DNA of 64,000 nt from an uncultured Opitutaceae bacterium (GTDB taxonomy: Bacteria; Verrucomicrobiota; Verrucomicrobiia; Opitutales; Opitutaceae), in NCBI GenBank assembly GCA_951813085.1, contig OX638348.1, positions 2,799,627-2,863,626 of the forward strand. Reading direction: 5' to 3'. This document shows positions 32,362 to 46,424 of this stretch, one piece after another. The position numbers were made by a program, and so were the translations under genes. The notes below the pieces were generated by a model. That model worked only from the letters and a program-made list of their open reading frames with translations. It made no database searches and was not told where the DNA came from. Positions within the stretch are counted from its first letter, which is position 1. Each line of letters starts with the position of its first letter.

Positions 32362-33753
32362 CTACTCTTCGCGCAGGGAGGAAAACACGTCCCCGGTGGG
32401 CTTGGCGGGGAGCGTCGCTTTCCAATCCTCAAGAAGTTTCTGCAGCTGCGCGACAACTTCAGGCCTTTCTTTTCGATAATCCGTTTCCTCGTAAGGATCC
32501 GCTGCGATGTCATACAATTCAAGATGGCTGGAATCCTCGTTGGAAACGAGCTTCCAGTTCTCGTGAACGACCGCGTAGGCGACCCAGTGGTCCGGCCGGG
32601 CGTTTGCTGGTGGCCAGGAAGCGCCCATCTTCCAGAAAAGCGGCTTGTTTCGCTGCGGGTAGGGTTTTCCTTTCAAGGTGGCGAATTGGCTCAGCCCATC
32701 AGGCGTGTATCCCTTTGGCAATGACACACCCGCGATTTCGCAAAACGTCGGCAGCAGATCGACCGCGGACATCAAGGATTGGCTGTCCACTTTTCCTGCG
32801 GCGATTTCCCCTGGCCAGCGAGCGATGAACGGGACGCCGATGCCTCCTTCAAATAGTGCCGCCTTGTATCCTTTTCGGCCACCAGTAACGCCTTTCGCGG
32901 CGGCGATATTATATCCCGCTCCGGTTGCCGTATCATGCATAAGGCCGAGATCCGTATTCCGGGAGTCTCTCGCAGGGCCATTGTCAGAGCTGAATATGAC
33001 CAACGTATTCTCGCTGATCTCCAAGCGATCCAAGGCATCCAGTATCTCGCCTATGCGATCATCGGCATGCGACAACACAGAGGCGTAGATATTGTCTTCT
33101 TCGGGCAAGTCTCGAAAGCGCCAGCGGTATTTCGGAACCGTATGGAACGGCGTATGCGGCTCATGAAGCCATACGTTAAGGAAGAACGGCTTATCCGCTT
33201 TATGGCTCTTCTCGATAAATGCCACCGCAAGCTCCGAATCCTCGTGAACGGGCATCTGTTCCCCGGCGCAATTAAAGGCTCCGTATTCGTCGTACCCATA
33301 CTCGCTAGGCAATGGCGAATCCGGGATCATGTTGTTGGCAAGGTGCCATTTTCCGAAATGGGCAGTCGCGTAGCCGCCCTTTTGCAGCATTCGCGGCAAA
33401 AGCGGCGCATCCCGGCTGAGCCAGTCCGGCATATTGCGCTTCGCATTGCTGGGGACCCAAGCGAAGTGGCCATCGATATTGTATCGAGCGGGAAAATGCC
33501 CGGTCATCACCGCGGTACGACTGGGTGAGCACACGCCGCTCGCCACCGTGAACCGATGGAAGTCTGTTCCCTCCGTCGCCAGCCGATCGACATGCGGCGT
33601 TTTCACATACGGGTGACCATGGCAGCTGAGGTCCCCCCAGCCCCAGTCATCCGCGAAGATGAAGACAATGTTGGGTCGGTCAGCGCCGTGGAGCGAAGAA
33701 ACAACGCAAAGGAAGACAGCTATGGCGAAAATTCTTGGGGAAAACTTCTTCAT
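32362..33753 (-). CDS. S1 sulfatase (exported) 2
   Basis: The start at 33753 gives the signal peptide MKKFSPRIFAIAVFLCVVSS and 463 residues. Visible motifs are NIVFIFADDWGWGDLSCHG, the formylglycine motif CSPSR with Cys75, AHFGKWHLANN, WLHEPHTPFH, and FSSDNGPARDSRN. The protein is a complete type I sulfatase; subfamily and substrate cannot be read. The sulfatase at 34000 lies upstream on the same strand with a 246-base gap in which I see nothing else. A TTAACAGGAT element ends 22 bases after its stop. Confidence 0.93.
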   Translation of the reverse strand: MKKFSPRIFAIAVFLCVVSSLHGADRPNIVFIFADDWGWGDLSCHGHPYVKTPHVDRLATEGTDFHRFTVASGVCSPSRTAVMTGHFPARYNIDGHFAWVPSNAKRNMPDWLSRDAPLLPRMLQKGGYATAHFGKWHLANNMIPDSPLPSEYGYDEYGAFNCAGEQMPVHEDSELAVAFIEKSHKADKPFFLNVWLHEPHTPFHTVPKYRWRFRDLPEEDNIYASVLSHADDRIGEILDALDRLEISENTLVIFSSDNGPARDSRNTDLGLMHDTATGAGYNIAAAKGVTGGRKGYKAALFEGGIGVPFIARWPGEIAAGKVDSQSLMSAVDLLPTFCEIAGVSLPKGYTPDGLSQFATLKGKPYPQRNKPLFWKMGASWPPANARPDHWVAYAVVHENWKLVSNEDSSHLELYDIAADPYEETDYRKERPEVVAQLQKLLEDWKATLPAKPTGDVFSSLREE

Positions 33754-33999
33754 GAGCAATTTCTCGTAATTCGCTAGCATACATCTTTCTCGCGATTAGC
33801 AAATCCCTTAAATACAGGATGCTCAAGCCGAGCGGATTCAGCTTCATCGCTGCAATTCGTTCGCCTATTCTCTTCTCGTCATCGTTTTCTGCAGATCCCG
33901 ATCGGGCAAGACTTGGTTCGAGCCACTGCCTTCGCTCCCACAGCCAATGTACATCTGTACGGCATTTGCTATCATTAATATTTGCCGACGTAATTTCGA

Positions 34000-35472
34000 T
34001 TACGGCCTCCAAGGCTCAGGACCGCCCTCTTTTTGCTGGAGGAACTTTGCGTCTACGTCTTTGTACCATGCGTGGAGGCGGGCCCGCATCTCCGTCACTT
34101 TCCTAGGATACTGCGCGGCAAGATCGTTTTGCTCGCTGATGTCGTCTTTTAAATTGTACAGATGGACCCGGCCATCCTCGTAGCGCTCGATCAACTTGAA
34201 GTCGCCTTCCCGGACCGCGCCTCCTGGAATCCCTCCTTGATTGCTGTAGTGAGGATAATGCCAATACAAAGACTCGCGATCCAGGGCATCCCCTTCCAAG
34301 ACGGTCCGCAAATCCAACCCATCAATCTCGTGATCGATCGCGGCGTCCGCAGCAGCCGCTAGCGTAGGATAAAGGTCGATCGAGCAAATCGGCGCATCGC
34401 TGACGCTCCCCGGTTGGGTGACTCCCGGATAGCGGACGAGCCAGGGTTCACGGATGCCGCCTTCATACAACCAGCCTTTGCCGCCGCGCAGCGGCAAGTT
34501 GCTGGTGGGGAGTCCTTCCGAAGTGGAAAGCCCGCCGTTGTCCGAGGTAAAGACGATGATCGTGTTGTCCGCGACTCCCGAGTCCTCAAGCTGCTGCAGC
34601 ACCTTGCCGACCGCTTCGTCCATGGCTTCTACCATGGCGGCGTAGACAGCGTGCTTTTGCAGGACGCGAACGCGACGTTCCTTGTCCCCGAAAATTTGCT
34701 CTTCAGTCGCGAATTCCGCGCCTAAAATCTCGGCTGCCCTTGCTTCGTATTTGGCGACCAAATCCGGGCGGCCCATGAGCGGCGTGTGCACTGAGTAGAA
34801 GGAGAGGTAGGCAAAGAATGGGCCGTCTTTGTTCTCGTCAATGAACTGAGCGGTGTCTCGGGCGAGCCGGTCCGGCAGGTGGTCGCCCTCCGGGCTTTCC
34901 ACTTCCATTTGCGGGTTCTCGAAGGGCGAAAAGTATTTGTTTCCTGTATACGGGCCACCGCGCGTGTGGCCGCCAATATTGATATCGAAGCCGCGGTTTT
35001 GCGGGTAGTACTCCTCGGATTCGCCGAGGTGCCACTTACCTGCGAAGAAAGTACTGTATCCCTCCGCCTTCAATAGCTGGGCGACGGTCACTTCGTCCAA
35101 AGGCATATTATCGGCGAGCGGAGCGGGATCGAACGTTCCGCTGCGCTTGCCAGAAAAGAAATTGGTAGCGTCTACACGGGTTGGATACTTACCGGTCATG
35201 AGGGCGTACCGCGTCGGCGAGCAAACCGGATTGGCGGCGTAACCGTCAGTGAAGCGCATACCCGAATTCGCCAGCCCATCGATGTGAGGCGTTTCATAGA
35301 AGGAGTCTGGGTTGTTGGCCCCGATGTCCATGTAACCCAAATCATCGACGAGAAAGACGAGAATGTTGGGTCGTTTCGTTTCAGCGGGGGAGCAGCCGAC
35401 TTGAAATCCGACCACGGCCAGCAAGCTGACCAGGACCGCCCAATGAGTGATTTTCTTTTTTAGTGAACGCAC
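34000..35472 (-). CDS. S1 sulfatase, predicted lipoprotein 3
   Basis: The 490-residue protein has a lipoprotein-type signal with Cys27 (LLAVVGFQVGC), so it is probably membrane-anchored. Sulfatase motifs are ILVFLVDDLGYMDIGANN, the formylglycine motif CSPTR with Cys84, FAGKWHLGES, LSFYSVHTPLMGRPD, and FTSDNGGLSTSEG. The tail LYNLKDDISEQNDLAAQYP is typical of the family. The upstream gap (35473-35676) contains only a solitary repeat end. The gene probably belongs with the sulfatase at 32362 and the PQQ protein at 35677. Confidence 0.93.
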   Translation of the reverse strand: MRSLKKKITHWAVLVSLLAVVGFQVGCSPAETKRPNILVFLVDDLGYMDIGANNPDSFYETPHIDGLANSGMRFTDGYAANPVCSPTRYALMTGKYPTRVDATNFFSGKRSGTFDPAPLADNMPLDEVTVAQLLKAEGYSTFFAGKWHLGESEEYYPQNRGFDINIGGHTRGGPYTGNKYFSPFENPQMEVESPEGDHLPDRLARDTAQFIDENKDGPFFAYLSFYSVHTPLMGRPDLVAKYEARAAEILGAEFATEEQIFGDKERRVRVLQKHAVYAAMVEAMDEAVGKVLQQLEDSGVADNTIIVFTSDNGGLSTSEGLPTSNLPLRGGKGWLYEGGIREPWLVRYPGVTQPGSVSDAPICSIDLYPTLAAAADAAIDHEIDGLDLRTVLEGDALDRESLYWHYPHYSNQGGIPGGAVREGDFKLIERYEDGRVHLYNLKDDISEQNDLAAQYPRKVTEMRARLHAWYKDVDAKFLQQKEGGPEPWRP

Positions 35473-35676: not shown

Positions 35677-38472
35677 TCATCGAGATCTTGGGAGCGGGCG
35701 AATACGGATATTGCGCCAGCCCATCTCATAGGTGCGGTCGTCATTCATTCCGTGGACCTGGAGCGCGATGAAACCATGGGGATGCGTTTCATAGGCTTCC
35801 TCGTCGGTCACATCATCAATCAGCTGCCCATTCACCCAAGTACGCAATCGTGGGCCTTCAGCCACTATCCTGAGCTTGTTCCAAGATTTGTCGACATAAT
35901 GATGGTGCCCTTTGGGATAGATATCCCCTGAAAGATATCCTCTACCCATCGCTTCACCGTAAATGAAACCCGTAGTGGGTTTATCCATACCCTGAAACTG
36001 TCGAATCTCGAGCTGTGGGCCCCAGACGCGTCCAGCCATTTCCGTATTGCGGCGACCCGTGGTCTGGGTTTTGACACGCGATCGGAACTGAACGCCCTGA
36101 TTCGTAGTATCGTCGACAATCACCTCAACTTCGAGTTCAAAATTGTCGAACTGACGTTGCGTACACAGGAAAGAGTTCACGCTCCAAGGATACGTGCGGC
36201 CGATAATTGTCCCCTCCTCCACTGAATACTGATGGGAACCATTCATATGGACCCAACCATCGAGCGATTCACCATCGAAGAGTTCAATCCACTCAGCCTC
36301 TTCGCTATCCGTCGAGACAAGATCAAGCGATTCATGCTCGTCCTGTAGCGCGAAAGCGACGATCGAATCGCCCGACTTAGTGCCGTTCTTTCCACCGCCT
36401 CCAGCCACGATGGCAACATACTGCTTTCCATCCACTTCGTAGACGCTTGGGGTCGCATATCCGCCCGCCGGCAATGAATGCTCCCAAAGAATATCGCCAC
36501 GACTCTTCCCGAAGGCTCGAATTTTTTCATCAGCAGTCGCTGCGATGAAGACAACCCCTCCAGACGTCGCAACGGCTCCCCCGTAGTTCAACGTACCTGT
36601 ATTTCGGATACCCTTTTCAACCAAATGAGGATACTCCCCCAAGGGCACACGCCACACGATCTCGCCCCGCAACAGATCGATCGCGTTCAAAGTTCCCCAT
36701 GGCGGTTTTATTAATGGGGTCTTTTCCTCATCACGAAACGTATGATAGCCCACCGCAAGAAACAGTCTCTCGACCTCCGCCTCATCAATGTCCGCAAGGG
36801 ATTCGTTTTCGCTCATAACATAGGCCACGAGGGCGTCGATTTGGCTATCCGAAAAGTGGCCGTATGCGGGCATCAGTCCTTTCCCATCATGTATCGCCGT
36901 CCAAATCTCTTTAGCGGGTTTGCCTAGATCTTTCAATGGCGGGAAAATAGGCGGTATGCCGTTTCGGTCGACTCCATGGCAAGCCGTGCAGTTCTTCTGA
37001 TAGATGAGCTTCCCCTTTTGGGCAGGCGAAACGGATACGCCCTCCCTAGGCTGGAGTACTTCGCTTATCTGGTTTATTCCCGGAATTTCGTGCGAATTGA
37101 CGAAAAGCATATTCGTCAAGGGGTCGAAGGACGCCCCTTGCCATTCCGTTCCTCCAAGGGTACCTGGCATTGAGAGCGTTCCTTGCTTGCTTGGGGGCGT
37201 GTACAAATAGCCGGACCTCAATTTTCGAAACGCATCCAAGGCCTTCTGCTTGTATTCGGGCGTTACATCTAGCAGATCCGACTCCGTAATTTCCAATCGA
37301 TTCAATGGAGGCGGCCGCAGTGGGAAAGGTTGAGTCGGATAGGCAACCTCACCCGGGATATCCGAGGCGGGTACTGGCAATTCTACTACTGGAAAGACGG
37401 GCTCTCCAGAGTCACGGTCTAAAACGAAGGTCAGCCCCATTTTAGTGAATTGAACCACCACATCCTTCTTCGTTCCCTTGTCATTGACCGTAGCCAATAC
37501 TGGAGCGGAGGGATTATCGTAGTCCCAAATATCGTGATGCACGGTCTGGTAGTGCCATATGCGCTCTCCGGTCGTGGCGTCCAGCGCCAAGACGCAGTTC
37601 CCGAAAAGATTGGCTCCGATACGGTACCCACCCCAAAAGTCATATGACGGAGAACCGGTGGCGCAAAACACCCACCCGCGTTCCTCATCAAGAGAGAATC
37701 CACCCCAAGGATTGGCTCCCCCATAGCTCACGCCATCTACCCATTTCCAAGTATCGTATCCAAATTCCCCTTTCTTAGGAATCGTGTGGAATATCCATTT
37801 GAACTCGCCCGTAACCGTATCGAACGCCCGTATATCACCCGGCGTTGAATCGTAGCCCTCGGGCACTCGCGATCCAACGATAAGGAAGTTCTTGTATACG
37901 ATTCCAGGACTCGTCACTTCAATCGAGGCTTTGGTATAGTCGATTCGAAGATTCTTTCTGAGATCTATAAACCCTCCCTCGCCAAAGGATTCTATGGGTC
38001 TCCCGGTTTTGGCATTAAGCGCATAAACACGATTCTTAACGAAATGAAATATACGCTTATCATCTCCATTTTCCCAATACACAACGCCCCGGGTTCGTCC
38101 CTTGAGCTCGCGATTCCCTTCATTGCGCTCGGATGACTTGAAAACCCAGACTTCTTCACCGGTCGCAGCATCCAAGGCTATGGCGTTCATGCTAAACGTC
38201 GAAAGATAGAGCAATCCATCGATCATGATTGGGTTAACCTGCATGGAGGAGCGGTCGGTTGCATCTCCTGTATTGTACTCCCACGCCTTTTTCAAGTGAT
38301 GCACATTCCCCGCATGCACTTGAGCGAGGTTCGAGTATTGATTGGCTTTGCTATCCCCTCGATAAACGCGCCATTCCGCATCCGATTTCTCGATGTCTTG
38401 ACCGCAGACCACAATCGCTGATTGCAATACGCAAATGGAAATAAACGTGTATAGGGGTTGGCGCAATTTCAT
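35677..38472 (-). CDS. PQQ-dependent dehydrogenase fused to cytochrome c and DUF1080 domains
   Basis: The 931-residue exported protein has a signal peptide (about 1-24). An eight-bladed quinoprotein propeller runs through about residue 485 and resumes after the cytochrome, with tryptophan-docking repeats such as NAIALDAATGEEVW and VLALDATTGERIW. A cytochrome c domain carries CTACH at 495-499. A C-terminal DUF1080 (3-keto-disaccharide hydrolase-like, concanavalin-type) domain starts near 735: WIELFDGESLDGWVHM, then RTWVNGQLIDDV. Known parts: membrane-glucose-dehydrogenase-like PQQ enzymes oxidise sugars or alcohols in the periplasm, and DUF1080 domains bind or cleave oxidised disaccharides. 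The fusion suggests oxidation and recognition of one carbohydrate substrate. Confidence 0.88.
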   Translation of the reverse strand: MKLRQPLYTFISICVLQSAIVVCGQDIEKSDAEWRVYRGDSKANQYSNLAQVHAGNVHHLKKAWEYNTGDATDRSSMQVNPIMIDGLLYLSTFSMNAIALDAATGEEVWVFKSSERNEGNRELKGRTRGVVYWENGDDKRIFHFVKNRVYALNAKTGRPIESFGEGGFIDLRKNLRIDYTKASIEVTSPGIVYKNFLIVGSRVPEGYDSTPGDIRAFDTVTGEFKWIFHTIPKKGEFGYDTWKWVDGVSYGGANPWGGFSLDEERGWVFCATGSPSYDFWGGYRIGANLFGNCVLALDATTGERIWHYQTVHHDIWDYDNPSAPVLATVNDKGTKKDVVVQFTKMGLTFVLDRDSGEPVFPVVELPVPASDIPGEVAYPTQPFPLRPPPLNRLEITESDLLDVTPEYKQKALDAFRKLRSGYLYTPPSKQGTLSMPGTLGGTEWQGASFDPLTNMLFVNSHEIPGINQISEVLQPREGVSVSPAQKGKLIYQKNCTACHGVDRNGIPPIFPPLKDLGKPAKEIWTAIHDGKGLMPAYGHFSDSQIDALVAYVMSENESLADIDEAEVERLFLAVGYHTFRDEEKTPLIKPPWGTLNAIDLLRGEIVWRVPLGEYPHLVEKGIRNTGTLNYGGAVATSGGVVFIAATADEKIRAFGKSRGDILWEHSLPAGGYATPSVYEVDGKQYVAIVAGGGGKNGTKSGDSIVAFALQDEHESLDLVSTDSEEAEWIELFDGESLDGWVHMNGSHQYSVEEGTIIGRTYPWSVNSFLCTQRQFDNFELEVEVIVDDTTNQGVQFRSRVKTQTTGRRNTEMAGRVWGPQLEIRQFQGMDKPTTGFIYGEAMGRGYLSGDIYPKGHHHYVDKSWNKLRIVAEGPRLRTWVNGQLIDDVTDEEAYETHPHGFIALQVHGMNDDRTYEMGWRNIRIRPLPRSR

Positions 38473-40459: not shown

Positions 40460-41908
40460 CTAGTTCAAGGGATCCGCCATTCGGCCCTTGAACCAAGTGA
40501 AAGCGGATTTCAATTCAGCCAGCGTGCCTGCATGGCTCGGTTTCTTCGCCAGGTCATCCATCTCCATTGGATCTGTATCCAAATTATAAAGTCGATAGGT
40601 ATCGATCTTGGGATAATAGATCAATTTATGATCTCCACTAATGAATGCCCGTTGGCTATCCGGCTCGTATGCGCCATAAATGTAGTCGTACTGCTTTTCG
40701 CGCTTCCCCTCGATTAGCGGTAGCAGGCTCTTGAACTCAACGTACTCAGGCTGCGGTAGGCTGGCCAATTCGAGCGATGTCGCCATAACATCCTGCAGGT
40801 ACACAGGCGTGTCTATCTTCTTGCCTTTGGGAATGCTCGGACCTGTAACGAGCAACGGCGGGCGCAAGCTGTGTTCGTACATATTTTGCTTGCCGATGAA
40901 TCCATGGTGGCCGACTGCCAATCCATGATCCGCGGTAAAGAAGATGTAGGTGTTGTCCGCTTTGCCGCTCTCCTCGAGCGCGTCGAGGATTCGACCGATC
41001 TGATCGTCCATGTGGGTGACAATGGCATAGTATTCACGGCGGTGCACCTTGACCGCGTACTCCGTTCGGGGCAATGGCGCGAGGACTTCGTCACGAATTT
41101 CTGCTGCGCCGGTACCTTCCATATATGGATACCTGGGAGCGAAGGTTTCCGGAACTTCAATTCGGTCTAGCGGGTAGCGATCTAGGTACTCTTGCGGCGC
41201 TTGGCGTGGATCGTGAGGCGCGTTAAATGCCAGGTACATGAAGAAGGGCTTATCCGACTCGGAGGTCAGCCCCATGAAGTTTTCTGCATTGTCGGCGACC
41301 ACCTCGCTCCAGTGCCGGCCCCCAGCCCAGAATCCCGCGAACTTTGGATCCGTAGCCGACCACGGATCTGGCTTTCCTTCCACAGGCCGTCCATAGGCTT
41401 CCGGGTAGTAGATCGGCCCAGGCATGCCCGGGCGCACGTGCGATACGTGATCGAAAATGGCGCCCGTATCCGCTTTTACATGCCATTTTCCAGTAAAGAA
41501 GGTCTCATATCCCGCATTGCGCATCAGCTGGGACCACATGCGCTCATTGTTGATTTCCTGAGCGAGCTTGGGCTCCAGATCTCGGGCTCGCCATAGGAAG
41601 CGTCCCGTATTGATCATGGTACGGCTCGCAACGCAGATCGCCCCATGCCAGCCTCCCATATTGTATGTGTGAGTGAAGACGGTTCCTTGATTCGCTAGTC
41701 GATCCAGATTCGGAGTATCGATATCGGTAAGGCCCAGAGCGCCGATCGTCTCGTAGCATTGGTCGTCCGCGAAAATGAAAAGGATGTTCGGCTTCTCCGC
41801 AGCGGAAGCCGAGAGAGTCAGAAGATTTAGCGCTATAAAGAAGGGTAGCATTCTGCGTCGACGCGCAAAGAAAGCGTTTTTAAGCAAATATAGGGAATTA
41901 GGGCGCAT
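40460..41908 (-). CDS. S1 sulfatase (choline-sulfatase-like) 4, CxAxR type
   Basis: Motifs are ILFIFADDQCYETIGALG, the formylglycine motif CVASR (Cys92 from the chosen start), FTGKWHVKADTG, LAFNAPHDPRQAP, and TADHGLAVGHHGFIGKQ. The signature uses Ala where most sulfatases have Pro (CxAxR), a known permitted variant. Start uncertain: 41908 (MRPNSLYLLK, with RRRR before the hydrophobic stretch) or 41851 (MLPFFIALNLL); the open frame reaches 42100. Its stop is 49 bases from the upstream end of the agarase-like gene on the same strand, so they may be cotranscribed. Confidence 0.9.
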   Translation of the reverse strand: MRPNSLYLLKNAFFARRRRMLPFFIALNLLTLSASAAEKPNILFIFADDQCYETIGALGLTDIDTPNLDRLANQGTVFTHTYNMGGWHGAICVASRTMINTGRFLWRARDLEPKLAQEINNERMWSQLMRNAGYETFFTGKWHVKADTGAIFDHVSHVRPGMPGPIYYPEAYGRPVEGKPDPWSATDPKFAGFWAGGRHWSEVVADNAENFMGLTSESDKPFFMYLAFNAPHDPRQAPQEYLDRYPLDRIEVPETFAPRYPYMEGTGAAEIRDEVLAPLPRTEYAVKVHRREYYAIVTHMDDQIGRILDALEESGKADNTYIFFTADHGLAVGHHGFIGKQNMYEHSLRPPLLVTGPSIPKGKKIDTPVYLQDVMATSLELASLPQPEYVEFKSLLPLIEGKREKQYDYIYGAYEPDSQRAFISGDHKLIYYPKIDTYRLYNLDTDPMEMDDLAKKPSHAGTLAELKSAFTWFKGRMADPLN

Positions 41909-42020
41909 ATGTCTGGTATGAAGGTTGATGTGGGGGCAGCGAAAATCTACGCTCGAAAAGGGAAATGTAGGTGTAGAGCGTATAACTAGCTTGTGAAAGT
42001 ACAAATTCGTTTTAATTCCA

Positions 42021-42061
42021 TGGGTTAAGACCCACGAAATAGGCGATTTCCGCCCTATTTC
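42021..42061. promoter_or_regulatory. Two adjacent inverted repeats in a divergent promoter region
   Basis: TGGGT-TAAG-ACCCA (42021-42034) is a perfect 5-bp palindrome arm pair. GAAATAGGCG (42036-42045) is mirrored by CGCCCTATTTC (42051-42061), with one extra base. They lie between the divergent sulfatase (start 41908) and Gfo/Idh gene (start 42175). They could be operators or RNA hairpins. Confidence 0.3.
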
Positions 42062-42174
42062 ATTAATAAGAGGTGTTCGTAGCTGGACGCCAGAGAACAA
42101 ATTACCATTATTCGCAAGTCTACCCGCTATGGGACGCCTCAGTTCCCGTTCGGTACCCTAAAATCTCTATTCGT

Positions 42175-43581: not shown

Positions 43582-43621
43582 CTGAAGGCAGCGCAGCCTT
43601 AGGATACTAGGTATAGTTGTC

Positions 43622-43963
43622 TTAACAGGATACGGCCCGTATGCGGGCCTACATGATCCCGCCATGCGGGAACACGATGATCTATATTCTCAAAAAGCGA
43701 GAACCTGTATCCGCGAATGTGCAACCGTGCAATGGATACGTTGCTAGTATTTTTTCTAACATCGCTCACTGCCATCGCTAGTTTCACTCCTCCGTCGGGA
43801 AATGGGTTTCAGCGAAGCTGTAAATAGGTTCGATCTACCCGATGCCTGATGCAGCATAGCCCATCCTAGGTAGCGGCGAATCTCCGAACCGCCACAATAC
43901 CCAGATCTCATCATGTAGCCCTGCGAGGGCATCATGCCAGCGAGGCACGAGCGAATCCTGTAA
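43622..43963. repeat. TTAACAGGAT element, copy D (342 bp)
   Basis: It starts TTAACAGGATACGGCCCG and ends AATCCTGTAA (one base missing from the right end). The left hairpins CGGCCCG/CGGGCC and GATCCCGC/GCGGGAA match copies C and E. The middle ACATCGCTCACTGCCATCGC and TTTCAGCGAAGCTGTAAATA module matches A and B. The right CATCATGTAGCCCTGCGAGG module is present. It lies between two convergent genes (Gfo/Idh and zinc ADH). No coding capacity. Confidence 0.78.
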
Positions 43964-43998
43964 ACTATATAACAACGCTCCCCCGCCTTGCGCATAGG

Positions 43999-44128
43999 CG
44001 TCAACTTAACCGGATACGAATGGGATTTAGCCACAAAAAGGCGCGAAAAGTCACAAAGATCACAGCTTTCAGTATCTATTATCGTGATCTTTTGCGCCTT
44101 TTCGTGGCCATCATTAGTTAAGTTGACG
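43999..44128. repeat. 130-bp palindromic element with 12-bp inverted ends
   Basis: CGTCAACTTAAC (43999-44010) and GTTAAGTTGACG (44117-44128) are exact inverted repeats. The interior continues to pair imperfectly: GCCACAAAAAGGCGC and AAAGATCAC on the left against GTGATCTTTTGCGCC and TTCGTGGCC on the right, so the unit can fold into one long hairpin. It lies between convergent genes, so it could serve as a terminator as well as being a small mobile element. It differs from the TTAACAGGAT family just upstream. Confidence 0.65.
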
Positions 44129-44171
44129 TGTATCCACCTTTCGGGATCGCTAGTTTCTTTGAGTCTTGATC

Positions 44172-45275
44172 CTAATCGAAGACGATGACGCCTTTTGCAT
44201 TGCGTCCCGCCATCATGTCGTCGAACGCGTCCTTCAGGTTGTCCAGTGAATAAGTACGGATTACCAACTCGTCTAGCATGAGCGCACCACGATTGTGGAG
44301 ATCCAGTATTTTCGGAAAATCGCGGGCCGGCGACGCCTTTCCATAGAGTGGATTGATGTATGTCTTGTCCCACTCGAACAGGTTCATGTCGATTTCGATC
44401 GTTTGTTCGATGCCAGAGACCTGAATAGCGGTCCCCGCATTGCGAACCATTGCAAGTGGAGCTGCTCCAAGCGCGGGAATTCCGGTGCACTCGAACGCAA
44501 AGTCCGCTCCGCGTCCATCGCAAATCGACTTCACTTCATTCGCCACCTCAAGGAGCCCCGCGTCTTCCTGCTTTGCGAGTACCGTGTGCGTCGCTCCGAA
44601 TTGGCGCGCCATTTCGAGACGATTTGAATTTACGTCAATCGCGATAATTTTGGCGGCACCCGATATACGGGCACCCTGTATTACATTCAGGCCTACGCCA
44701 CCTGTTCCGATTACCGCGACGCTGCACTTTCGTCCCACATTGGTGGCATTTACTAAAGATCCAAAACCCGTCATCACTCCGCAACCAACGATGCACGCGG
44801 AGGAATAGGGGATATCGACCGAAATCGGAACGACCGCTTCCTTTCGAACGACTGTAAAGTCGCTAAGCGTACCGATATTGAACGAACGCTTGAGCGGTTC
44901 CCCATTCAATGTAGTCGCGTCTGCGTGGGCAGCCCCTCCATCAGGATCCTCTCCGGTAACAGGGGAATTTTGTTCGCAGATGTTTTCGTTTCCGCTCGAG
45001 CATTGAAAGCACGAACCACAAGGAATCGCCCAGTTGAGAAGGACTCTGTCGCCGACTGAAACGTGGTCGACGCCCTCGCCAACCTTGTCCACGATTCCCG
45101 CGCCCTCATGCCCAAGTACGAATGGATATCCCCAACTCAAAGAATCGAAGTCCGTATGACAAAGTCCGGACGCCTTAATGGCTACGCTAACTTCATCCTT
45201 TCCCGGTTCGTTTACCTCGATAGTTCTGACAGCAAACGAACCCTTTCCATCGGCAACTGCGGCGTTCGCTTGCGT
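44172..45275 (-). CDS. Zinc-dependent alcohol/aldehyde dehydrogenase (class III-like); no canonical start
   Basis: The conserved sequence spans the whole frame to 45275, immediately after the P450 stop. From ACG at 45275 the protein has 367 residues, opening TQANAAVADGKGSFAVRTIE, with the zinc ligand in GLCHTD (Cys39), GHEGAGIV, structural-zinc cysteines CGSCFQCSSGNENIC, and VIGTGGVGLNVIQ. The first ATG/GTG/TTG in frame is TTG at 45140, but starting there would lose Cys39 and the first strands. Initiation at ACG, an ATG-to-ACG change, or read-through of the P450 TAG must be considered. It may oxidise the aldehyde or formaldehyde adduct released by the P450 (inference). Confidence 0.8.
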   Translation of the reverse strand, partial: TQANAAVADGKGSFAVRTIEVNEPGKDEVSVAIKASGLCHTDFDSLSWGYPFVLGHEGAGIVDKVGEGVDHVSVGDRVLLNWAIPCGSCFQCSSGNENICEQNSPVTGEDPDGGAAHADATTLNGEPLKRSFNIGTLSDFTVVRKEAVVPISVDIPYSSACIVGCGVMTGFGSLVNATNVGRKCSVAVIGTGGVGLNVIQGARISGAAKIIAIDVNSNRLEMARQFGATHTVLAKQEDAGLLEVANEVKSICDGRGADFAFECTGIPALGAAPLAMVRNAGTAIQVSGIEQTIEIDMNLFEWDKTYINPLYGKASPARDFPKILDLHNRGALMLDELVIRTYSLDNLKDAFDDMMAGRNAKGVIVFD

Positions 45276-46424
45276 CTACCCTATCGGAACAAAGTTAACA
45301 TGCAACTCGTGGAACGCGTTCGGTCGTTCGTAATCAGACTCCTTCTCCACTTTTCGATGTAGATCGAGGAGGTCTATCGACGAGGTGTGAGCGCATATCG
45401 ATTTCAGCAGGGATCGTATGACGGCGCGGGCATGGGGAGCGCCAAGGCAAATGTGGGCTCCACTACCGAAAGCGATATGAGGATTGGGTTTACGGTCGAG
45501 CTTAACGTCTTCCGGGTCTTTGAAGACCGTTTCGTCGAAATTCGCCGCTGCCCAATTTAGCGAAACGATTTTGCCTGCTTCAACCTTAACTCCGTGAACA
45601 TCCGTATCGACAGGACACATACGACCCAAATGAGTGACGGGTGAAGCATAGCGAAATAGTTCCTCCGTCGCAGAGATAACGCGCTTAGGATTGTCCCGCA
45701 GGTCACCGAAAGCCTCTGGGTGCTCCGCCAGGTAGGCAATCGCCATAGAAATTGAATTGATCACCGTATCCCGTCCTCCTGCGAATGCGATATTCGCATA
45801 GCCTTGCATCTCTTCTCGGGTCAGCTTCCGCCCTTGGATTTCCGCTTGAGTAAGCGCGGAAAAGAAATCGTCGCCCGGATTCTCCTCCGCCTTGTCGAAG
45901 AGCGAATTCGTATAGGCTTCCATCTCGTGGCCTTTGGAAACGCCGCTCTCGTCTCGGAACACGTGCGTTCCCCATTGTATCCATATTTCCGCTTCCGATT
46001 CAGGCATATTCAATAGAAGAGCAAGGGCGCGGGATTGAAGCGGGATTGCGAACTCGCATACGACTTCGGTGGATTCGCGCGAAACTGCATCCTTGACCAG
46101 CGCGTCGATCAGTCGATCCATCTCTTCAACGTACTCCGGCTTGTTCGCGCGACGAAAAAAGGGCTCGACGATTTTGCGATAGTCCGTGTGCTCAGGCGGA
46201 TCTACTTCAAGCGGATACTGGCGCACTGTGCGGACATCTTCCTCGCGAGGAATCGGCACGCGAAAGGGAGCGTCCGAGCTATAGGTTTCGTGATCACGGG
46301 CCGCCTTGCGAACAGCGTCAAATCCTATAAGCATTGCGACAGGTTCGCCGTCGAATTCAGTTGCAACCACCGGCGATTCTCGACGCGCCTCTTTAAAGGG
46401 ATCGTGATATGGGCATTTAGACAT
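45276..46424 (-). CDS. Cytochrome P450
   Basis: The 382-residue soluble bacterial P450 shows the I-helix motif AGGRDT (near 216), the K-helix ExxR in EELFR, and the haem loop FGSGAHICLGAPHAR (cysteine near 325). It has no membrane anchor and no fused reductase, so it needs a ferredoxin and reductase, neither in the window. The TAG stop is followed directly, in the same frame, by the zinc alcohol dehydrogenase. Marine polysaccharide degraders use a P450 with ferredoxin, reductase and often an ADH to demethylate 6-O-methyl-galactose. The nearby sulfatases and agarase-like protein fit that, but the substrate is unproven. Confidence 0.93.
   Translation of the reverse strand: MSKCPYHDPFKEARRESPVVATEFDGEPVAMLIGFDAVRKAARDHETYSSDAPFRVPIPREEDVRTVRQYPLEVDPPEHTDYRKIVEPFFRRANKPEYVEEMDRLIDALVKDAVSRESTEVVCEFAIPLQSRALALLLNMPESEAEIWIQWGTHVFRDESGVSKGHEMEAYTNSLFDKAEENPGDDFFSALTQAEIQGRKLTREEMQGYANIAFAGGRDTVINSISMAIAYLAEHPEAFGDLRDNPKRVISATEELFRYASPVTHLGRMCPVDTDVHGVKVEAGKIVSLNWAAANFDETVFKDPEDVKLDRKPNPHIAFGSGAHICLGAPHARAVIRSLLKSICAHTSSIDLLDLHRKVEKESDYERPNAFHELHVNFVPIG

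Follow-up and report, generated by a model that had tools for sequence, protein, structure and literature searches.

A P450–alcohol dehydrogenase gene pair with no usual start codon for the dehydrogenase in an uncultured Opitutaceae bacterium

In the window (the whole 64,000-nucleotide stretch analyzed, from contig OX638348.1 of an uncultured Opitutaceae bacterium), a cytochrome P450 gene is followed by a zinc alcohol dehydrogenase (ADH) frame with only a TAG codon marking the boundary, which raises the question of where, and whether, translation of the ADH begins. The answer we reach is mostly an ordinary one, namely a known enzyme pair in which the start of the second gene has been damaged or misread. 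Feature coordinates are collected in Table 1.

The gene pair and its junction

The 3′ end of the P450 gene reads GTT CCG ATA GGG TAG, and the ACG at 45275 comes directly next, leaving zero spacing between the two genes. From this ACG, 367 sense codons continue in the frame of the P450 to the end of the ADH at 44172 with no intervening stop. ADH codons 1–45 include no ATG, GTG or TTG, and the first usual start, the TTG at 45140, lies past Cys39; the complete set of codons before this TTG that are a single base away from ATG is ACG1, AAG11, ATC19, AAG26, ATT33, AAG34, and ACG41. The initial annotation had described this arrangement correctly in all respects (the shared frame, the TAG at 45278-45276, the ACG at 45275-45273, the 45 codons free of ATG, GTG and TTG, and the TTG at 45140). 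The shared frame is itself unremarkable, because around one in three neighboring genes share a frame by chance; at least 40 in-frame open codons followed the stop in 55 of 245 sampled genes (22%).

Table 1. Positions in the window of the gene pair, its junction codons and the adjacent repeats.
Feature	Position	Strand	Basis or remark
Cytochrome P450, 382 aa, intact, stop TAG	45276..46424	-	Pfam p450, best PDB match 6g5o
TAG, ordinary P450 stop	45276..45278	-	Homologous junctions, genome stop usage
ACG, site of ATG in homologous ADHs	45273..45275	-	Homologue comparison
Zinc ADH frame without usual start (367 codons and a stop), zinc ligands kept	44172..45275	-	
TTG, first usual start codon of the ADH frame	45138..45140	-	Codon 46
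Palindromic repeat, 139 bases, 37 bases beyond the ADH stop, outside the gene pair	43996..44134	+	
Intergenic repeat upstream of the P450	46515..46629	+	Related copies at 43619-43680 and 43908-43942, across the pair

Seven homologous loci in which a P450 immediately precedes a co-oriented ADH were used to judge the junction. None of the seven is fused or encoded in a single frame, and the gap from P450 stop to ADH ATG ranges from −11 to 121 bases. In one of them (L028), the P450 stop (TGA) and the ADH ATG share 4 bases, as in translationally coupled stop/start-overlap pairs, so that tight P450–ADH spacing is normal; the window pair differs from such pairs in having zero spacing and no ATG. The junction in G377, a genome from the same order and family as the window, is identical to that of Pelagicoccus mobilis (L025), from which we infer a Verrucomicrobiota origin for the window. 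The C-terminus of the window P450 is of usual length among its homologues (tails HELHVNFVPIG, HELKVQLISK, and HTLNVKMAPATP), and of the stops in the genome sample TAG is the most frequent, closing 116 of 245 genes, which argues against its reassignment. The TAG between the two genes is thus an ordinary gene end and not a novel type of fusion. Readthrough of the TAG to give a P450–ADH fusion, one of three options offered by the initial annotation, draws on the shared frame and the lack of any other stop between the genes; set against the unfused homologous tandems, the normal P450 tail and the genome's stop usage, it is hardly credible, and a readthrough fusion was rejected on the homologous junctions and stop usage; a designed fusion is likewise unsupported.

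Enzyme families and the published module

Among PDB sequences, the ADH matched FoADH and ZoADH (8H2A/8H2B) at 524 and 490 bits, with the next sequence at 193; the similarity is full-length and well above that to other zinc ADHs. All of the zinc ligands of this family are present, both catalytic (Cys39, His56, and Cys165) and structural (Cys86, Cys89, Cys92, and Cys100), and the window ADH differs from FoADH and ZoADH in having no usual start codon. The closest solved relative of the P450 over its full length is 6g5o/6g5q (357 bits for 6g5o, 157 for the next entry). The PDB table lists 6g5o only as Cytochrome P450, and we take it to be a 6-O-methyl-D-galactose demethylase. Judged by these similarities, the window P450 and ADH are predicted to be the pair belonging to the known module for oxidative demethylation of 6-O-methyl-D-galactose.

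Both FoADH and ZoADH originate in a gene cluster that oxidatively demethylates 6-O-methyl-D-galactose, a red-algal sugar derived from porphyran; in Zobellia galactanivorans and Formosa agariphila this module comprises a P450, its redox partners, an ADH, and an esterase (PMC10033563). Good growth of Z. galactanivorans on 6-O-methyl-D-galactose requires the ADH gene, and the preferred substrates of its ADH are aromatic aldehydes; neither FoADH nor ZoADH acted on formaldehyde, whether or not thiol cofactors were present (PMC10033563). The earlier suggestion that the ADH clears the aldehyde product of the P450 conflicts with these assays and is therefore unsupported by published biochemistry. The window pair shares its P450 and ADH families with the Z. 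galactanivorans and F. agariphila module, but differs in having no adjoining ferredoxin, reductase, esterase, or AraC gene. Fuller versions of the module occur in Rubritalea profundi (L024; ferredoxin, P450, ADH, and esterase) and on the Microscilla sp. PRE1 plasmid pSD15 (L022). On the Emticicia plasmid pEMTOL04 (L021, 5186-7095), the gene preceding the ADH homologue belongs to the phytanoyl-CoA dioxygenase family and is not a P450, which suggests that this ADH also pairs with other oxygenases.

Start codons of homologous ADHs

We sought ADH homologues in plasmids, in a set with one genome per species, and among 373 genomes from the same order, and compared start codons across 92 loci with more than 55% identity, including a few duplicates of one genome (for example L025 and L107). 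Every one of the 92 has an in-frame ATG between 0 and 7 codons upstream of the position corresponding to the ACG: at the ACG codon itself in 23, one codon upstream in 13, two upstream in 49, and three to seven upstream in the remaining seven. None uses ACG as the ADH start. Identity over the first 45 ADH residues was similar to that over the rest of the protein (80% vs. 71% for L024, 70% vs. 71% for L107), suggesting that this segment was under selection until recently. Since the segment is conserved and contains the catalytic Cys39, the true N-terminus of the ADH would lie at the ACG or immediately upstream of it; because the TAG occupies the preceding codon, an in-frame start following the P450 could fall only at the ACG codon or later.

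A later start, at the TTG at 45140 or at a near-cognate codon (ATC19 or ATT33), with the truncated protein being functional, is very unlikely. A crude gene caller does assign TTG to 32 of 263 starts in the genome sample, yet no homologue begins there, and the TTG start would drop Cys39, which binds zinc in the solved structures and was kept in all four of the proteins first aligned. As the initial annotation had recognized, such a start costs the protein a zinc ligand: Cys39 aligns with the catalytic Cys41 of FoADH and ZoADH. Orthologues that start at the downstream TTG and lack the GLCHTD motif were sought and did not occur, and the TTG was rejected as the ADH start on the loss of Cys39 and its absence among homologues.

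The ACG might alternatively be a working coupled start for ribosomes that have just terminated at the adjacent TAG, which would set a low ratio of ADH to P450. The otherwise intact ADH with its conserved N-terminus and the direct abutment of the ACG on the TAG are consistent with such a start, and initiation at ACG was detectable in an E. coli reporter study; it was weak, however, at 0.1–1.5% of ATG expression in that one study (PMC6925171). Weighed together with the lack of ACG starts among the homologues, this makes a functional ACG start improbable. No signal marks the site either, with only an AGG close upstream, but the missing site says little, given that sampling of the genome's genes showed no excess of Shine-Dalgarno motifs over shuffled sequence (9.1% vs. 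8.5%). If ACG initiation were true, it would represent a rare natural case in bacteria, and among the readings considered it alone would lead to anything out of the ordinary.

Of the three options in the initial annotation, mutation of an ATG to ACG is the best supported, in view of the homologous ADH loci, all 92 of which have an ATG within seven codons (exactly at the ACG in 23). Our preferred reading, held tentatively and at close to an even chance, is that the ADH has lost its start codon and that the pair is a stripped copy of the known module in early decay. The TAG would be the normal P450 terminator, and the ADH would ordinarily have been translated from its own ATG beside it. A T to C substitution giving ACG would be the simplest route; a small deletion removing the ATG while sparing the stop of the P450 would fit the sequence equally well. 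We infer that the base change is genuine in the organism and that it ran in this direction, with loss of ADH expression; full-length ADH would then probably be made poorly or not at all.

Partner genes, broken genes and genomic surroundings

In three relatives that carry a P450–ADH tandem (G377, G379, and G065), the ADH is preceded by a ferredoxin gene at a distance of 1.2–1.4 kb and followed by an esterase gene at most 1.6 kb away; all seven relatives tested have an esterase gene no more than 1.6 kb from the ADH. The same ferredoxin queries gave no homologue in the window genome. No esterase occurs near the window pair, and the only match in the genome has 26% identity and is 2.3 Mb away. A search for the reductase-ferredoxin fusion, which in G269 and G074 adjoins the ADH, likewise found nothing in the window genome, and one for an FAD ferredoxin reductase yielded only partial matches of 29–31%, located elsewhere in it. 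The lack of neighboring ferredoxin, esterase, and regulator genes makes the window pair a probable stripped copy at an early stage of decay. Counting against this reading, G127 and G076, among the seven relatives, also gave no strong ferredoxin or fusion match, though no P450 was seen in the 4-kb loci around their ADH.

Several observations count against decay. Apart from its start, the ADH is free of lesions across its 367 codons, as is the P450 throughout; any decay must therefore be recent. P450s are also able to work with ferredoxins other than their own, and the window genome encodes four further Fer2 proteins that could in principle serve this one as redox partners. On the side of decay, no close copy of the ADH was found in ten genus-mates (best identity 32%), and the pair is thus patchily distributed. 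If the lesion is real, an algal methyl-sugar module would be seen being lost stepwise in one lineage, and gene callers would predict a shortened ADH that lacks its zinc ligand.

A codon-usage scan of a 464-kb sample, which flags coding-like sequence before the first possible usual start, placed the missing ADH start in a wider context. The scan flagged 10 of 314 genes in the window genome vs. 1 of 249 in the genus-mate G010, so a missing start such as that of the ADH is unusual; since 19 of 236 genes were flagged in G014 (63% GC), the count depends on GC content and is a rough guide only. At least two of the other nine flagged genes are plainly broken, and the flags we examined were frameshifted, broken by nonsense codons, unclassified, or had a plausible start close by. 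A frameshift within a run of A disrupts a sulfatase gene (L168, 4171-5654; genome 2874171-2875654), which is either a pseudogene or a long-read error, and a long receptor-like gene (L160, 3-2999; genome 980003-982999) has an in-frame TAG at 2061-2063. The SufD gene (L166) was discarded as a start-less candidate, its homologue matches beginning 3–18 residues in and a usual start being present at codon 18. No second convincing gene with an ACG start was seen among the flags of the 464-kb scan, and a lineage-wide habit of non-canonical starts was rejected on that ground.

Broken genes in the genome or its assembly fit real decay and errors alike, and they bear on the further reading that the ACG is a sequencing or assembly error, with the organism carrying a normal ATG and the ADH being an ordinary coupled gene. 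One base call would account for everything, position 0 carries ATG in 23 homologues, and the ADH frame is intact apart from its start. At least one A run of the assembly also carries a frameshift, as is typical of long-read errors, although this frameshift could be a genuine pseudogene and the change needed at the ACG is a substitution rather than an error in homopolymer length. A miscalled base would also leave the absence of the partner genes unexplained, and on balance we consider an error a realistic explanation but a rather unlikely one.

The genes that flank the pair are housekeeping-like: upstream lie those for a protein of the class I/II aminotransferase family and for a further zinc dehydrogenase, and downstream one for a Gfo/Idh oxidoreductase. 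The 139-base palindromic element at 43996-44134 has terminal inverted repeats (GTCAACTTAAC / GTTAAGTTGAC) and looks like a MITE; the genome contains three further near-full copies (91% identity) and some partial ones. The intergenic repeat family that brackets the P450–ADH pair has 43 matches in the genome, many of them in clusters near 1.25, 2.75–2.91, and 3.13–3.18 Mb. Elsewhere in the window, three minus-strand sulfatases lie within 10 kb of each other (32362-33780, 34000-35472, and 40460-42100); close to them is a PQQ/cytochrome c protein (35677-38472) that includes a 3-keto-disaccharide hydrolase domain.
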